Shown here: in pieces, positions 8,905 through 50,972 of the stretch
How positions within the stretch are numbered: position 1 is the stretch's first letter
Layout: every line of letters begins with the position of its first letter
Source of the DNA: Opitutales bacterium
GTDB lineage: Bacteria > Verrucomicrobiota > Verrucomicrobiia > Opitutales > Oceanipulchritudinaceae
Direction of reading: 5' to 3'
Length of the DNA stretch: 57,891 nt
NCBI GenBank assembly: GCA_020831585.1
Contig: JAFIGE010000009.1
Location: 1-57,891 of the forward strand
Notes under the pieces: model-generated
The model's database searches: none
Seen by the model: the letters and a program-made list of their open reading frames with translations, nothing else
What the model was told of the DNA's origin: nothing
Program-made: the position numbers and the translations under genes

Positions 8905-9897
8905 ATGAAAGATTACAGCAGGCGATCAGTCTTGGATGAGGAAATGTGCTTCCATGTGATGTCGAGAGTTGTGCAAAGGCGCTTCCTCATTGATGAGAAG
9001 GGGATGGAGGAGATGCGGCGGATTTTGCGCACGCAGGCTGCGTTTGCCGGACTGGATGTGATCACGTTCTGCTTTTTGAAGAATCACTTCCATATCCTGC
9101 TGCATATTGATCCGCTAAGGGCGCGCGAAGAGGTGACCGATGGGGAGTTGGTGAGTCGTTTTCGTGCCCTGTACGGGGGCAAACGCTCGCCCTCGTTGGG
9201 GGTGGATGCGGAGACACTGGAGACTCTGCTGGCTAAAAACAGCCCCCGCGCCGCAGAGCTGCGCCGGAAACTCCTGGCGCGGATGGGGGACCTATCGGTG
9301 TTTATGCGGGAGCTGAAGACACGCTTCACATTTTGGTACAATAAGCATTACAAGACCGTGGGCACGTTCTGGGCGGAACGCTATCGCCGTGTTTTTGTCG
9401 AACCGGGCTCGGCTGCGCTCCGGACAGTGGCCGCCTATATCGACCTCAATGCGGTGCGCGCTGGATTGGCAGACTCCCCCGGGGAATACCGTTTCTGCGG
9501 ATTAGGAGAAGCCTTGGGCGGCGGGGAAAAGTCGGCTTACGACTGGCTGATGCGGCGAAAAAAGGGTCGGGGCCGATGGGAGTTGGTCGACCACGATGTA
9601 TTTGGCGAATACGTAGCTCACGTGAAACGCCTGACAGCAATACTGAAGGCAGAGAAAGCGGGCCTGAATCGCTTGAAGAAGACGGGAACTGTGGGGGGCA
9701 ACTCCGGTTTGAAAGAGGCGGGATGGGGCGAGGGCTACGGCGCCAAAGGTGGAGCGGTGGGGAGTGCTTCCTGGGTGGAACGGCTGTGTGAAATAGGCGG
9801 GATGCTGGGCTTTCTGCGCAAACGTCGCCCGATTGCTCTCAATGCCTCCGTCGACGAGCCCATCTACGCGGCGCGTCGATGGCACGCGGGTGATTGA
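8905..9897 (+). CDS. REP-associated tyrosine transposase (RAYT / TnpA_REP), apparently intact
   Basis: A Y1-type HUH endonuclease of 330 residues. Landmarks: a CFHVMSRVVQRRFLI N-terminal strand, the HUH variant NHFHILLHID near residue 60, a helix with TRFTFWYNKHYKTVGTFWAERY, then AAYIDLNAVRAG, which holds the presumed catalytic tyrosine. The basic C-terminal tail is typical of single-copy RAYTs, which bind and cut REP hairpins rather than transposing with inverted repeats. No clear REP hairpin was found directly flanking it. It is closely related to the decayed copies near 32.8, 41.2 and 48.6 kb, and is the only full-length one of that group here. Confidence 0.88.
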   Translation: MKDYSRRSVLDEEMCFHVMSRVVQRRFLIDEKGMEEMRRILRTQAAFAGLDVITFCFLKNHFHILLHIDPLRAREEVTDGELVSRFRALYGGKRSPSLGVDAETLETLLAKNSPRAAELRRKLLARMGDLSVFMRELKTRFTFWYNKHYKTVGTFWAERYRRVFVEPGSAALRTVAAYIDLNAVRAGLADSPGEYRFCGLGEALGGGEKSAYDWLMRRKKGRGRWELVDHDVFGEYVAHVKRLTAILKAEKAGLNRLKKTGTVGGNSGLKEAGWGEGYGAKGGAVGSASWVERLCEIGGMLGFLRKRRPIALNASVDEPIYAARRWHAGD

Positions 9898-17355: not shown

Positions 17356-18375
17356 TCAATCTATCCTGGGGCGGCCTGCGCAAAGACCGTCGCCCAACAG
17401 ATCCTCCCCCTCTGCGGAAGCGGCCTGCACCGGATCGTTGGTTGCCGTTTGCTTAGCCGCCCCCCGGCCCATCCAGCGACTTACAAAGGCCTTCGTGCCG
17501 ATCACGGCCCCGCGCGTCATGTAGCGCAGGCGGCAACGCAGCAACTGGGCTCTGGAAAGCTCGCCGCCCGCTTGCAGGACCGCCTCAATCTCCTCTTTGC
17601 CAAACACCGCCCCTTTCCCTGGGGCACTGCCCGCCACATAGAGATAGCGCCGATACGCCGCTGCCACCTGTTCCAACGATTCCGCATGCTTCCCCGCCAA
17701 GTGCGCAAAGAGACGATATCCCTTCAGCCCCAGCCGACTCCCGGCGGCCTCTCCGTAACCGCTCCAGCGGTAGTCCTTCGGATCCCCCACGATCCCCGCC
17801 CGCACCGCATTCAGATCAATATAGGCCCCCACCGCCCGCAATGCGGCCGCCGAATCCTCCACGAGCACGCTATGAAAGCGGTCCTCCCAGAGAGTGCCCA
17901 CGCGGTCATGGGCGCGGTTAAAGAGGATTGAAAAGCGCTGTTTGAGCAGCTTCACAAACATCGGCAGCGAAGCCATTCGCTCCATCAGCAGAGACCGCAT
18001 CCGCGTGCGCACCTCCCCGCCCGCCTGCAGAGCCAGCCCGATACGGAAAAGCGATAACGGCTGGTGTTTGCGCTCACTGCCGTAGATCAGGGCGGCGCGC
18101 TCCAGCAGCTCGCCATCGCTCAGCTCACCCACCGTTCCCGGCACCCGCACAAGCAGGTGGAAGTGATTGTCGAGGATGGCAAAAGTGAGCACATCCACCC
18201 CGCAAAAGCCCGCCACCCGCCTGAGCAGATCCCGGAAAGCCTCCTTCTCCGTCTCACCGAGCACAAACGCCCGCCAATTGATCCGGCTCACCACGTGGTA
18301 GCAGCTCTCAACTTTTTTCCGCACAATGCGGGGCACCCTCCGCCCCTTCGGTGGAATCAGATGCATATTGGACAT
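17356..18375 (-). CDS. REP-associated tyrosine transposase (RAYT), second subfamily
   Basis: An HUH Y1 transposase of about 340 residues. Landmarks: YHVVSRINWRAFVLGETEKE, the HUH variant DNHFHLLVRVPG, LKQRFSILFNRAHDRVGTLWEDRFH, and AYIDLNAVRAG with the presumed catalytic tyrosine. The C-terminus (LRCRLRYMTRGAVIGTKAF) matches the window-edge fragment at 1-164 but not the RAYT at 8905, so at least two subfamilies coexist. The frame extends to 18402, but that part is composed of a direct repeat of GGGGTATGTC, so MSNMHL at 18375 is preferred. It follows ybeY on the same strand. Confidence 0.85.
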   Translation of the reverse strand: MSNMHLIPPKGRRVPRIVRKKVESCYHVVSRINWRAFVLGETEKEAFRDLLRRVAGFCGVDVLTFAILDNHFHLLVRVPGTVGELSDGELLERAALIYGSERKHQPLSLFRIGLALQAGGEVRTRMRSLLMERMASLPMFVKLLKQRFSILFNRAHDRVGTLWEDRFHSVLVEDSAAALRAVGAYIDLNAVRAGIVGDPKDYRWSGYGEAAGSRLGLKGYRLFAHLAGKHAESLEQVAAAYRRYLYVAGSAPGKGAVFGKEEIEAVLQAGGELSRAQLLRCRLRYMTRGAVIGTKAFVSRWMGRGAAKQTATNDPVQAASAEGEDLLGDGLCAGRPRID

Positions 18376-18397
18376 ACCCCCAACCTGACATACCCCA
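18371..18397 (-). repeat. Direct repeat GGGGTATGTC at the RAYT start
   Basis: GACATACCCC occurs at 18371-18380 and again at 18388-18397 (GGGGTATGTC twice on the minus strand, 7 bases between). The repeats straddle the proposed start of the RAYT gene. They may be a binding site for the transposase or a tandem target, and they argue against the upstream ATG at 18402. Confidence 0.4.
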
Positions 18398-18437
18398 AAC
18401 AAAGCACAAGCAAAAACCAGGAATTTTAGAAGATCGA

Positions 18438-40239: not shown

Positions 40240-40578
40240 ATGAAACGTTACGGAAGTGTGATTGGTCTGCGCGAAGACAAGGTTGATGCCTACAAACGCC
40301 TCCACGCGGCTGTTTGGCCCGATGTCCTGGCGCAAATCAAGCGGTCAAATATCCGCAACTACTCCATCTTCCTCCGTCGCCTGCCCGACGGTCAGCTGTA
40401 TCTCTTCAGCTACTTTGAGTATATCGGCACCGACTTCGCCGCCGATATGGCCGCCATGGCCGCCGACCCCCGAACGCAGGAGTGGTGGGCCGTCTGCGAA
40501 CCGTGCCAGCAACCCCTCCCAGACCGCCCCGACGGCACCTGGTGGGCCGACATGGAAGAAGTCTTCCACGCCGATTAA
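40240..40578 (+). CDS. rhaM: L-rhamnose mutarotase
   Basis: A 112-residue dimeric alpha/beta-barrel protein that interconverts alpha and beta anomers of L-rhamnose before catabolism. MKRYGSVIGLREDKVDAYKR, HAAVWPDVL, NYSIFLR and EEVFHAD match the family start, active-site histidine and ending. No other rhamnose genes (rhaA, rhaB, rhaD) are nearby, so it is an orphan here. The stop overlaps the end of the decayed RAYT on the opposite strand. Confidence 0.9.
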   Translation: MKRYGSVIGLREDKVDAYKRLHAAVWPDVLAQIKRSNIRNYSIFLRRLPDGQLYLFSYFEYIGTDFAADMAAMAADPRTQEWWAVCEPCQQPLPDRPDGTWWADMEEVFHAD

Positions 40579-41465
40579 TCAACATGACGCTCCCCGCCGG
40601 GGCTATGCCGGTGCAGACAGGGAAGCGAGAGGGGGGTGATTGGAAATTTCTCGATAGGTGCCATCATCGAAGGTGGCGTCGCGGGGGTGATGATTTTTGT
40701 TTTCGACGTTCCAGAGCAGGCGCGCGCCTTCGTGAGCAACGCATGAAGCGTCCCGTCCGCGGCACCGGTCATGAAGATTCTTTTGCCGCGGGTGCTTTGG
40801 GTACCTTCGCTTAAGGAGGTTTTCTTTGGTAGGCTTTCGCGGGCGACTTCAAGGATGCGCCGGATACAGGGAAAGCCCATCGGCAATCGGCAGCGGGTCC
40901 GGCGCTCCGAGGTAGTGGCGCTTATCGAGCAACGCCCGGTCGCGCTCGTGCCATTCTCGCGTCCAAGACGGCTTGCCCTCGACTCGCGCGCTCCCCGCCG
41001 CGCCGCCGAGCCACCCGCGCAGGCTTCCCCAAAACCGCTGAAAGCATAATCGGGCGCATCCTTCACCAGCCCTGCCCGAACTGGGTTCAAGTCGATATAC
41101 GCCGCCATCCTTTGCGCCTCCGTATCCGCCTCCACCACCACACTGCGGAAACGCTCCGCCCAGAATTTGCCCACCGTTCCACGCTCCCGGTTGTACCACA
41201 GGGTAAAGCGCGTCACCAGCTCCGCGTCGTCAAAGCTCTCGGCCTCCTTCGGATCCAGCCGCACGAAGATGTGAAAGTGATTAGCCAAGAAGCAATACGT
41301 CAGCACCTCCATCCCCGCGAACGCTGCCTGCGAACGCATGATATGGCGCATCGCCATCGCCTCCTCATCCATCAGTCGTCTTTTCTGCACCACCCTCGAA
41401 ATAAGGTGGTGGCACGCTAATTGTGGATGCCGTAATCGCCGACGATATCTCCTGTCTATGGCCAT
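40575..41465 (-). pseudogene. Internally deleted RAYT (probable pseudogene)
   Basis: From ATG 41465 the product reads CHHLISRVVQKRRLMDEEAM, then NHFHIFVRLDP (HUH) and AAYIDLNPVRAG, but lacks about 65 residues found in the intact RAYT at 8905. In that copy ELVSRF and ELKTRFTFWYN are far apart; here DAELVTRF runs straight into TLWYNRERGTVG. Recombination between the two TRF-like segments would explain the loss. After the tyrosine helix the frame becomes low-quality Arg/Ser/Thr-rich sequence to 40575, suggesting a frameshift. Confidence 0.75.
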
Positions 41466-41503
41466 CGCGCCATTCAAAAGGCACTCTCCGCTCCAGGGTG
41501 TCA

Positions 41504-41522
41504 ATAAAAATATTCAGAATAT
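41504..41522 (-). repeat. AT-rich RAYT upstream motif, copy 3
   Basis: On the minus strand ATATTCTGAATATTTTTAT lies 38 bases before the start of the internally deleted RAYT. It is nearly identical to the motif at 48807-48825 and to that at 8849-8867, and at the same distance from the gene as in the intact copy. Confidence 0.6.
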
Positions 41523-46986: not shown

Positions 46987-48381
46987 TTAAAGAATCCCCA
47001 AATCTCCCAAGCGCTTTTCGAGACCCCGCCGATAGGAAAAGTATCCGGACTTCGCGTGCGGCCAATGGACGTCGTCCCAGCGGCGCCGATGCTCCTGCAG
47101 GCTGACGCCGAGGCGACCGAGTTCCGAGCGAAGTTTATACAGGCGTTTTTGGAAAGGGCCCACCGTTGGACAAAGCACCCGAACAGCCTTCAAGCGTTCC
47201 CGCTGCGCCCAAAGGCAAACGCCGCGAACCCAATTGTCCAAAGAGCCGCTGTAGACGCGCAGGGGGGTGGGGCGACTGACATTCTTCTCCGCAGGCTCGT
47301 CACTGTAAATAAAAAGTTCCTCAACGCCCCGAAGAGCCGAAGGGTCGTCCGACCAATGATCGCCTGCTCGACGGGCGGCATCGGCCATTGCTTGTTTGCG
47401 GAAGGAGCACACACGCGGGGAGAGTCGCATCTCATCAGCCACGTCCTGAGCAAAGAAAGAGGCGACACTGGAGAAAGGACAATCGCCCAACTCGCTGGCT
47501 TCCGGGTAGAGGTCATCCTCGATGATGAGCAAGCCTGCCGGAGATGTGGAAAGGGTGGGGAACCGGGCCTCGCGGTGGGCGGTCGATTCCTTCAGTTCAA
47601 CAATTCGCCAATGCGTCTCTTCAGCCAGAGGTTCGGGCGACTCTTCGAGCTCGCCGTAGGGGGCAAAACGGCCTTCGGTGAATTTTTCTATATTTGACGC
47701 GCGGGCCACGTAGGGTTTGCCGCGGGTGTGCAGACCCGCTACCCACCGCCAGGAGAGAGTGTTGGAGGCGGGATCGCCGTCCACGAGATGCCGTAAAAAT
47801 AGGTCGGCCCCCAGCTCCCAGGGCAGGCGGAGAGTGAAGATCCAAATACTGGCAAACCACATTCGCGCATGATTGTGGAGATATCCGGTCTCAAGAAGCT
47901 CCCGCATCCAGTGGTCAAAGCACCCAATACCCGACTCGCCTTGGCAAACTTGCTCAAAACCTCGTCCGTTTGCCGCGGCCGGTGCCTCTTTCGTCAGGCG
48001 ATTCAGGGAGTTGTGATAGGCAGACCACAGACCCGGGCGCATTTCCAGCCACCCCTTCCAGTAAGTTCGCCAGCAGACCTCTTCGATAAACTTGCTGGAA
48101 GCTCGAAAGGAGTGCTGTTCCAAAACCGCTTTAATCACCTCCGCCTCAGTAATGAGGCGATGTCGCAAATAGGGACTCAGGCAGCTGACTCCCGGGTGCC
48201 CGGGCAAGTCAAAGTTCCGCGCGGCCGAATAGCGGGAGGCGTGCGGAACAAATTCGTGGAGTATCCGCAGCCCATCTGACCGGCTGGGATCACCCAAACG
48301 GAAGTCGTTGGTTAACTGGAGATTTGGAATTACCACTCTCCGATCTTCCAAAATTTGGAAATGGCTGACTAGGTAGAACAC
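46987..48381 (-). CDS. Photolyase/cryptochrome-like flavoprotein with FAD domain first
   Basis: A protein of up to 464 residues. Residues about 45-250 match the photolyase FAD-binding domain: LPGHPGVSCLSPYLRHRL, CWRTYWKGWLEM, FDHWMRELLETGYLHNHARM, LVDGDPASNTLSWRWVAG, and ASNIEKFTEG. The remaining 190 residues look alpha/beta (GLLIIEDDLYPE, VEELFIYSDEP, LKAVRVLCPTVGPFQKRL, and a final FSYRRGLEKRLG). They resemble the antenna domain that normally comes first, so the domains appear swapped. Starts GTG 48381 or GTG 48336 are possible; the latter has a GGAAG ribosome site. Confidence 0.8.
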   Translation of the reverse strand: MFYLVSHFQILEDRRVVIPNLQLTNDFRLGDPSRSDGLRILHEFVPHASRYSAARNFDLPGHPGVSCLSPYLRHRLITEAEVIKAVLEQHSFRASSKFIEEVCWRTYWKGWLEMRPGLWSAYHNSLNRLTKEAPAAANGRGFEQVCQGESGIGCFDHWMRELLETGYLHNHARMWFASIWIFTLRLPWELGADLFLRHLVDGDPASNTLSWRWVAGLHTRGKPYVARASNIEKFTEGRFAPYGELEESPEPLAEETHWRIVELKESTAHREARFPTLSTSPAGLLIIEDDLYPEASELGDCPFSSVASFFAQDVADEMRLSPRVCSFRKQAMADAARRAGDHWSDDPSALRGVEELFIYSDEPAEKNVSRPTPLRVYSGSLDNWVRGVCLWAQRERLKAVRVLCPTVGPFQKRLYKLRSELGRLGVSLQEHRRRWDDVHWPHAKSGYFSYRRGLEKRLGDLGIL

Positions 48382-48569
48382 CGCATTCGGTCAATTCTTC
48401 GTGTGAGCGGCAAATCTGCATAGGTGGAACGATCTCCGAAGAACTCAACATCTCTGGTTTAAGTTGTTTTGGTCTTCAATGTCGCCTCGCGGCGGTCGCA
48501 ACCTTCGTGAAATCAACCCCGCCGTCGCCGTCCTGAACAACCGGTTTGGCCTTTCTTCCCCTCCGAAAC

Positions 48570-48741
48570 CCCAGCCTGCCCTCGGCCGCTCAAAGATGGG
48601 AAAGTGATCGACGAGAGAGGAATAGGTCACACCTCCATCCCAGCGAACGCCGCCTGCGAGCGCATAGCGTATCGCCTCCTCATTCATCAGCCGACTTTTC
48701 TGCAACACCCTCGAAGTAAAGCGGTGGAACGCCAAGCGCAT
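48570..48741 (-). pseudogene. Decayed RAYT, N-terminal remnant B
   Basis: The minus strand encodes SRVLQKSRLMNEEA near the start and, 30 residues on, VDHFPIFER. This is homologous to SRVVQKRRLMDEEA and ANHFHIFVR of the related RAYT. The metal-binding HUH motif is mutated (HFH to HFP), part of the intervening helix is deleted, and the upstream frame contains a stop codon. It is the most decayed of the three related copies. Confidence 0.75.
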
Positions 48742-48825: not shown

Positions 48826-48906
48826 GTAATCAGGACCGTGGTCGACGAATCGCTGCTTGCGGCCAAGGAGAGGGACCGCCATAGCGGGGTTTGAGAATTT
48901 TTGGAA

Positions 48907-49584
48907 ATGAACTGCCTTATTGTGGAAGACGATCCGGCGATTTCCGATCTCGTGCGGGATGCCCTCACGGGAAATGGGCTGAGCGTGGAGACCGAGGCCA
49001 ATGGCGACCACGCTCTTGATCGACTTTTGACCGAAGCCTACGATGTGGCGGTTGTTGATATCATGTTGCCGGGGAGGGATGGGATCAGTCTTGTGCGCAA
49101 GCTGCGGACCGACGGAGTGACCATACCGATTCTCATGCTGACGGCCCGCCGCACGGTGGGTGAACGCGTGGAGGGACTGGACGCGGGTGCCGACGACTAC
49201 CTTGGGAAACCCTTTCACATTGATGAGTTGGTTGCCCGCGTGAAAGCGCTCGCGCGGCGGGCGCGCCCGGAGACACTGACCGTGCTCGCTTACGCCGGGC
49301 TGAGCCTGAATCTGGGGACCCGCGAGGTCCGCCGCGAGGGGCGCCGGATCGAACTTTCGAATCGCGAGTTTTCCCTTTTGGAGTATCTGCTTCGGCGGAA
49401 GGAGCGTGTGCTGTCGCGCGGGCAGATTTGCCAGCACGTCTGGGGCTATTACGTGGAGGTCAATCCAAATCTGGTGGATGTCTATGTGAAACGTTTGCGT
49501 GAGAAGATCGAGGATCCGGCCTTGCCGCCCCTGCTGCAAACCATCCGGGGCGTGGGCTATTGCCTGAGGAAGGAGCCCGCGTGA
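48907..49584 (+). CDS. OmpR-family response regulator
   Basis: A 225-residue two-component regulator. The receiver has acidic pocket ED (7-8), phospho-acceptor Asp51 in VVDIMLPG, Thr in MLTAR and Lys in GKPFHIDEL. The C-terminal winged helix (LSNREFSLLEYLLRRKERVLSR, with LVDVYVKRLREKIE) binds DNA. It is cotranscribed with the kinase at 49581, whose GTG start overlaps its TGA stop as GTGA. The first codon TTG 48901 adds two residues; ATG 48907 is preferred. Confidence 0.95.
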   Translation: MNCLIVEDDPAISDLVRDALTGNGLSVETEANGDHALDRLLTEAYDVAVVDIMLPGRDGISLVRKLRTDGVTIPILMLTARRTVGERVEGLDAGADDYLGKPFHIDELVARVKALARRARPETLTVLAYAGLSLNLGTREVRREGRRIELSNREFSLLEYLLRRKERVLSRGQICQHVWGYYVEVNPNLVDVYVKRLREKIEDPALPPLLQTIRGVGYCLRKEPA

Positions 49585-50972
49585 AAAGACGCCGCCGACT
49601 CCGGGGAGAGCTGATCCGGAGCGCTGTCCTCACCACGACCATCACGCTCCTGATCTTTATGGCGGGAAGCCTCCTGTATCTGCGTTACACCCTGAAGGGA
49701 GCGATCGATGGGCAACTGCGCGACATTGGTGGAGATATCCTCTCCCAGCAAAATTTTGCGGGCGGCTTGCGAGTCAACGAACGCATCCGCCTCTACCGAA
49801 CGCTTTTTGACGAGCAAAACCTCATCCGTCTGATCGAAGTGAACCTCGGGGGTGAGGATGGTTTATATTCCGACCCGCGAATGGAGGATTTGCTTTTGGC
49901 TTTCCGTAATAAGGTTCTTGAGGAGGAGGCGAGGCTCGGCGATTGCCTGGTCGACCCTTTGGTCACTGTCTGGCACGGGGGGCGCAACTGGCGAGTGGGC
50001 ACCTTCTCGGGAGCTGGGGCTTCGGTGGTGTTGGCGACCGATCTCGCCGATCTCGAAAAGCCCCTTGTTCAAATCCTTCTGGCTTTTCTCTTTGCGCTTC
50101 CGCTCACCGTGCTCGGCGCGGCTTACGCGAGTCATTGGTATGGGCGGCGGATTTCAGGTCCGATCGAGGATCTGGCCCGTCACGCGAGTGACCTGACCGC
50201 CTCCAACCTGACCCGGCGGATCGCCTTGGAGCGCGCACCCATGGAAGTGGGGGAGCTGGAGGAAGCGCTCAACCTGATGACAGAGCGTCTGGAGAAGAGT
50301 TTTCAACAGGCGCGGAGATTCAGCGCGGATGCCTCCCATGAGCTGCGCACGCCCTTGACGGTGATGCAGGGGATACTTGAGAATCGCTTGCAGGAGAAAG
50401 ACGGCCTGCTCTCGCGGACGGAGGCCGATCAGTTGCTGCAATCCACGCAGCGTTTGGCGGCGATCGTGGAGGGGCTCCTCCTCCTCGCGCGGGCCGATGA
50501 GGGCACGCTGTTGCAGGAGCGGGAAATCTTTGATTCCGGCAGCCTGCTGCGGCGGGTTGCGGAGGATGCGGAGGTGCTCGCGGAGTCCGCCGGTGTGGAG
50601 TTTTTCTATGAAGCCCCGTCGCTGCCGCCTGTTGGCGGCGATCCGAAACTGCTGGAGATCGCGCTGCATAACCTCCTCAAAAACGCGTTGCAAAACACAC
50701 CGGCAAAGGGGCGCGTGACCTTGCGGGCATACGCGGGGGCGACCGAGCTTGTCGTGACGGTGGAAAATTCCGGCAAGCCCATTCCGCGGGAAAGCTGGGA
50801 GGTGATCTTCAAGCGCTTCGCCCGCCTATCCGGCGATTATGCGGGAATGGGGCTTGGCCTGAACCTCGTTGCCGCCATCGCCCGCTCCCATGGCGGAAGC
50901 GTGAGGCTTGTCCGGAGCGACGCCGATCTCACTGTCTTTCGCCTCTCGCTACCCCTCGTGCAGCGGGTGTGA
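49581..50972 (+). CDS. Sensor histidine kinase of the OmpR-type two-component pair
   Basis: A 463-residue kinase. Two membrane helices (SAVLTTTITLLIFMAGSLLYL near residue 15, and ILLAFLFALPLTVLGAAY near 165) enclose a periplasmic loop of about 130 residues. Then come HAMP (RRISGPIEDLARHASDL), HisKA with SADASHELRTPL (His near 253), and HATPase_c with NLLKNALQNT and GMGLGLNLV. The sensed signal is unknown. GTG 49581 overlaps the regulator stop and has a strong AGGAAGGAG site, so it is preferred over the frame start at 49560. An inverted repeat at 50999-51041 lies directly downstream. Confidence 0.93.
   Translation: MKRRRRLRGELIRSAVLTTTITLLIFMAGSLLYLRYTLKGAIDGQLRDIGGDILSQQNFAGGLRVNERIRLYRTLFDEQNLIRLIEVNLGGEDGLYSDPRMEDLLLAFRNKVLEEEARLGDCLVDPLVTVWHGGRNWRVGTFSGAGASVVLATDLADLEKPLVQILLAFLFALPLTVLGAAYASHWYGRRISGPIEDLARHASDLTASNLTRRIALERAPMEVGELEEALNLMTERLEKSFQQARRFSADASHELRTPLTVMQGILENRLQEKDGLLSRTEADQLLQSTQRLAAIVEGLLLLARADEGTLLQEREIFDSGSLLRRVAEDAEVLAESAGVEFFYEAPSLPPVGGDPKLLEIALHNLLKNALQNTPAKGRVTLRAYAGATELVVTVENSGKPIPRESWEVIFKRFARLSGDYAGMGLGLNLVAAIARSHGGSVRLVRSDADLTVFRLSLPLVQRV

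Follow-up and report, generated by a model that had tools for sequence, protein, structure and literature searches.

Introduction

In textbook photolyases the antenna domain comes first and the FAD domain second. A class with 'inverted topology' that repairs cyclobutane pyrimidine dimers (CPDs) in single-stranded DNA was introduced by Emmerich et al. in 2020 (NAR 48:12845, doi 10.1093/nar/gkaa1147), as summarized in PMC13274461, and these NewPHL or SPL proteins are also known, through citing papers, from Xu et al. 2021 (MBE, doi 10.1093/molbev/msab191). Prochlorococcus Phr7 is described in PMC9426592 as an N-terminal FAD domain followed by a Z-domain at the C-terminus ('an atypical, short photolyase domain') and as devoid of Fe-S cysteines. 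According to the same source, the FAD domain also precedes the photolyase or Z-domain in Phr4-Phr5/Phr6 of marine Synechococcus/Cyanobium. According to PMC8948257, the NewPHL of D. shibae has a Trp dyad in place of the triad, and PMC12083526 lists an Asn facing flavin N5 among the NewPHL/SPL traits. PMC9649867 states that an Fe-S cluster occurs in some SPLs, which makes the absence of the cysteines a subgroup trait. SPL proteins have been proposed as possible ancestors of the photolyase/cryptochrome superfamily (as cited in PMC9498864 and PMC9649867), and the inverted order bears on the origin of this superfamily.

The protein studied here is encoded in the window, the whole 57,891-nt stretch of Opitutales bacterium DNA analysed. 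It very probably belongs to the NewPHL (SPL) class of bacterial photolyases, with FAD, a Trp dyad, CPD-splitting activity and a relocated antenna homologue as probable cap; the assignment is based on matching features and on Roseobacter and other homologues rather than on the named proteins A8LJA9 (D. shibae) or M7YZC8 (M. mesophilicum). Its inverted domain order is not new, as the NewPHL/SPL class was published in 2020 and occurs widely among bacteria. Within the window, the finding is an ordinary one: a widespread class gains one member, which extends it to this genome and to others of its order.

Results

Gene and domain layout

The FAD-first (NewPHL/SPL-type) photolyase corresponds to a minus-strand ORF of 464 aa at 46987..48381 that begins with GTG. 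The whole protein was modelled with AlphaFold2 from a 36-sequence alignment (pLDDT 87, pTM 0.87). Residues 1-28 (48298..48381, minus strand) are unconserved and disordered in the model, with pLDDT below 50 at residues 1-17 and 20-25. Since, in addition, the homologues begin at about residues 29-32, translation probably starts at a codon later than the GTG, for example the TTG at codon 29 (position 48297), and residues 1-28 are probably untranslated. The catalytic FAD-binding helical domain lies N-terminally at residues 26-257 (47611..48306, minus strand; VIA-align Z 17) and is joined by a linker (residues 258-275; 47557..47610, minus strand), near which pLDDT is low (around 270-280), to a C-terminal alpha/beta domain (residues 276-464; 46990..47556, minus strand). 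The latter has the antenna (HUP-like) fold according to the model, Foldseek, VIA-align and hhalign, and corresponds to the 'Z-domain' of NewPHLs.

The original prediction placed the FAD domain motifs within the first 250 residues, and this is where they were found. The Pfam family FAD_binding_7 covers residues 98-235 (E=8.5e-26), and in phmmer residues ~31-255 align with chain residues ~200-430 of solved photolyases, where their FAD domains lie. In agreement with this, residues ~23-257 of the model resemble photolyases and cryptochromes with VIA-align Z scores of 15-18. The FAD domain, starting at about residue 26, has no antenna domain in front of it. The N-terminal antenna family PF00875 (DNA_photolyase), present at the N-terminus of canonical class I CPD photolyases, is absent from the window protein and matched none of the 36 homologues.

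Probable relationship of the C-terminal domain to the photolyase antenna

Pfam and NCBIfam scans assigned no known domain to the C-terminus; BLH_phosphatase and similar scattered weak matches in three homologues were taken as chance. As structure searches with the whole model reported the FAD domain only, the C-terminal domain was folded alone, yielding a model with pLDDT 86 and pTM 0.82. The last ~185 residues are predicted to form an alpha/beta domain, as had been surmised from the sequence of the tail; it has five strands. Its top structural matches in VIA-align are the N-terminal antenna domains of photolyases: residues 2-148 of 1iqr (Z 10.9, rmsd 2.9, 143 aligned), residues 6-170 of 6kii (Z 10.5, 152 aligned) and residues 2-165 of 4dja (Z 10.3, 151 aligned). 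The best Foldseek match was Arabidopsis CRY2 at E 2.7e-3, the E-values of this search being modest. The VIA-align range extends to model residue 187-189 and thus includes the FSYRRGLEKRL helix (residues 447-460), which had been likened to the helix closing antenna domains.

The profile of the C-terminal domain was compared by hhalign with a template built from 42 antenna domains of antenna-first photolyases. This gave a score of 32.6 (E 1.4e-4, probability 52) over 100 columns, in register, with query columns 26-127 lying on template columns 28-127. Column-shuffled antenna alignments never scored above 17.2 in 60 trials, and the control families Usp, CTP_transf_like, Response_reg and SurE scored between 9.8 and 17.7 (E>=0.036). 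The antenna match is thus significant but not strong. Since it stands above the shuffles and all four control families, and is accompanied by the likeness in predicted fold, homology of the C-terminal domain to the photolyase antenna is supported at the level of both sequence and model. Mere convergence of fold is rejected in view of the controls and shuffles (at most 17.7 against 32.6). The original prediction had itself raised the possibility that the C-terminal fold might prove unrelated to the antenna; when this was examined, antenna domains came out as the best match in structure as well as in profile.

Universal stress proteins, which share the HUP-like class with antenna domains, come close to them in structural score (Z up to 10.2 versus 10.9). 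One could thus envisage that the C-terminal domain was acquired independently as a HUP-type domain, for instance of the universal-stress-protein kind, and is not a relocated antenna. We consider this unlikely, since many antenna domains align over 143-155 residues, closing C-terminal helices included, whereas universal stress proteins mostly align over ~109-125, and since the profile favours the antenna over Usp, the latter reaching a score of only 17.7 at E 0.036. By virtue of the fold and profile evidence for antenna homology, the data support the relocation of a single domain, as opposed to an unrelated cap having been fused on. Given the FAD-first order and the antenna-like character of the C-terminal fold and profile, 'circular permutation or domain shuffle', as first suggested, is a fair description; the data do not separate the two.

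The C-terminal domain would accordingly be homologous to the canonical N-terminal antenna, though diverged, and carried at the other end of the chain. Its most likely role is not to harvest light but to close the flavin site by packing against the FAD domain. The founding NewPHL paper reportedly put forward the C-terminal domain as a seal for the FAD site. It is improbable that the relocated domain binds a light-harvesting chromophore and docks in the canonical geometry, making the protein a genuine circular permutant whose antenna still functions; if it did, this would contrast with the capping role proposed for NewPHLs.

Active site and proposed function

Residues were mapped through the phmmer alignment to the Anacystis nidulans photolyase, and conservation was scored over 36 homologues. 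Roles were assigned from general knowledge and from PMC9426592. As indicated by this comparison (A. nidulans numbering in brackets), Y51 (Y228), E101 (E283), W104 (W286), R105 (R287), N170 (N349), M174 (M353), D201 (D380), D203 (D382), N207 (N386), W211 (W390) and W213 (W392) are invariant in all 36. N207 occupies the position of the Asn that faces flavin N5. All tested residues with FAD-binding or CPD-contact roles are invariant throughout the 36 homologues with the exception of A385, replaced by Ser in the window protein; A. nidulans T240 corresponds to V65. The inner tryptophans of the electron chain, W188 and W211, are likewise invariant, and in place of the outer one, at the position of A. 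nidulans W314, stands A135, leaving a Trp dyad. The 36-homologue alignment contains no set of four conserved Fe-S cysteines.

An N-terminal FAD domain, a Trp dyad, an Asn at flavin N5, the lack of Fe-S cysteines and, as far as descriptions can be compared, a short C-terminal photolyase-like Z-domain are features that the window protein shares with NewPHL/SPL proteins. It differs from them in a low-confidence insertion at ~345-372, found also in its closest relatives (L001, L115, L119 and L121). From PMC9426592, Phr4 and Phr6 have four Fe-S cysteines where the window protein has none, and Phr4/Phr5, unlike the window protein, are split into two ORFs. Four such cysteines also set apart FeS-BCP/prokaryotic (6-4) photolyases. 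Class I/III CPD photolyases (1iqr, 1owl, 4u63) resemble the window protein in the fold of the FAD domain and in active-site residues, but carry their antenna domain N-terminally and use a third Trp for electron transfer.

We infer that the N-terminal helical domain binds FAD and that reducing electrons would reach it through the two-tryptophan chain, W188 to W211. Upon absorption of blue/UV-A light, the flavin would pass an electron to a flipped CPD, which would be split. By analogy with characterised NewPHLs, the enzyme probably acts on CPDs in single-stranded DNA. The genome contains a single further FAD_binding_7 gene, an antenna-first photolyase, and the window protein probably works beside this ordinary photolyase, complementing it. 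NewPHLs have reportedly been proposed to substitute for DASH enzymes, and the presence of this single, antenna-first gene would fit such a role.

Genomic context

The neighbours of the photolyase gene encode SurE, a hypothetical protein and a two-component pair; none forms an operon with it, and no functional link was found in the neighbourhood. The pair, a response regulator and a histidine kinase, lies upstream in divergent orientation (48901-50972). Together with the fact that the superfamily includes blue-light sensors, this could suggest a cryptochrome-like sensor, no longer active in DNA repair, that uses its C-terminal domain for signalling. Such a function is very unlikely, as all the CPD-contact residues tested are invariant and these neighbours stand outside any operon with the photolyase gene.

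Four ORFs in the window (8905-9897, 17356-18402, 40575-41504 and 48445-48741) have a similar 'CYHVVSR...F..E'-like start and, judged by eye, resemble REP-associated tyrosine transposases (RAYT/Y1_Tnp). The last of them, upstream of the photolyase gene, is apparently truncated.

Distribution and phylogeny of FAD-first homologues

In one scan of bacterial and archaeal genomes, at least 586 stretches were found to encode relatives. The best 80 of these align along almost the entire length, with identities of 38-49%, and share the FAD-first layout, in answer to the proposal that homologues of the same order be sought. They refute the notion, prompted by the unusual domain order alone, of a broken or chimeric gene derived from a rearranged antenna-first photolyase, or of an assembly artefact. 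These 80 belong to Rhodobacteraceae, Hyphomicrobiales, Sphingomonas, gammaproteobacteria, Verrucomicrobiota, Actinomycetota, Acidobacteria and others. Because near full-length relatives occur across many bacterial groups, the FAD-first architecture is old and stable.

A plasmid collection yielded further homologues, of which three cover 80% or more of the query and several are annotated merely as 'FAD-binding domain-containing protein'; no homologue covering 80% of the query was found in a phage collection. In the order of the source genome, 11 of 132 sampled genomes, its own included, have a full-length match, and one further genome carries a homologue split in two. In L124 (~2260-2310), the FAD and C-terminal domains are encoded in separate, overlapping frames, with the break close to the junction between them. 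The arrangement recalls the natural phr4/phr5 split of marine Synechococcus; it could also be a frameshift error.

A tree of the FAD domain (96 rows, IQ-TREE) was built with an arbitrary root and with a bootstrap not fully settled. A branch with 99/99 support parts all FAD-first proteins from the antenna-first photolyases of the same phylum. The window protein falls within the main FAD-first clade, where it groups with Rhodobacteraceae, Sphingomonas and actinobacterial homologues. The root being arbitrary, the tree does not give the ancestral domain order.

Some of the relatives depart from the common pattern. L125, L126 and L127, with ORFs of 366-367 aa, make up another, distant FAD-first group, whose short C-terminal region is different and gave no clear match in profile comparison; each lies directly 5' of a divergent antenna-first photolyase-like gene. 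L128, from the same family as the source genome, has a 410-aa ORF on a very long branch, in which the C-terminal domain is kept and the HNHxRM motif and other FAD/CPD-contact residues are lost. This degenerate FAD-first homologue is possibly a non-catalytic descendant.
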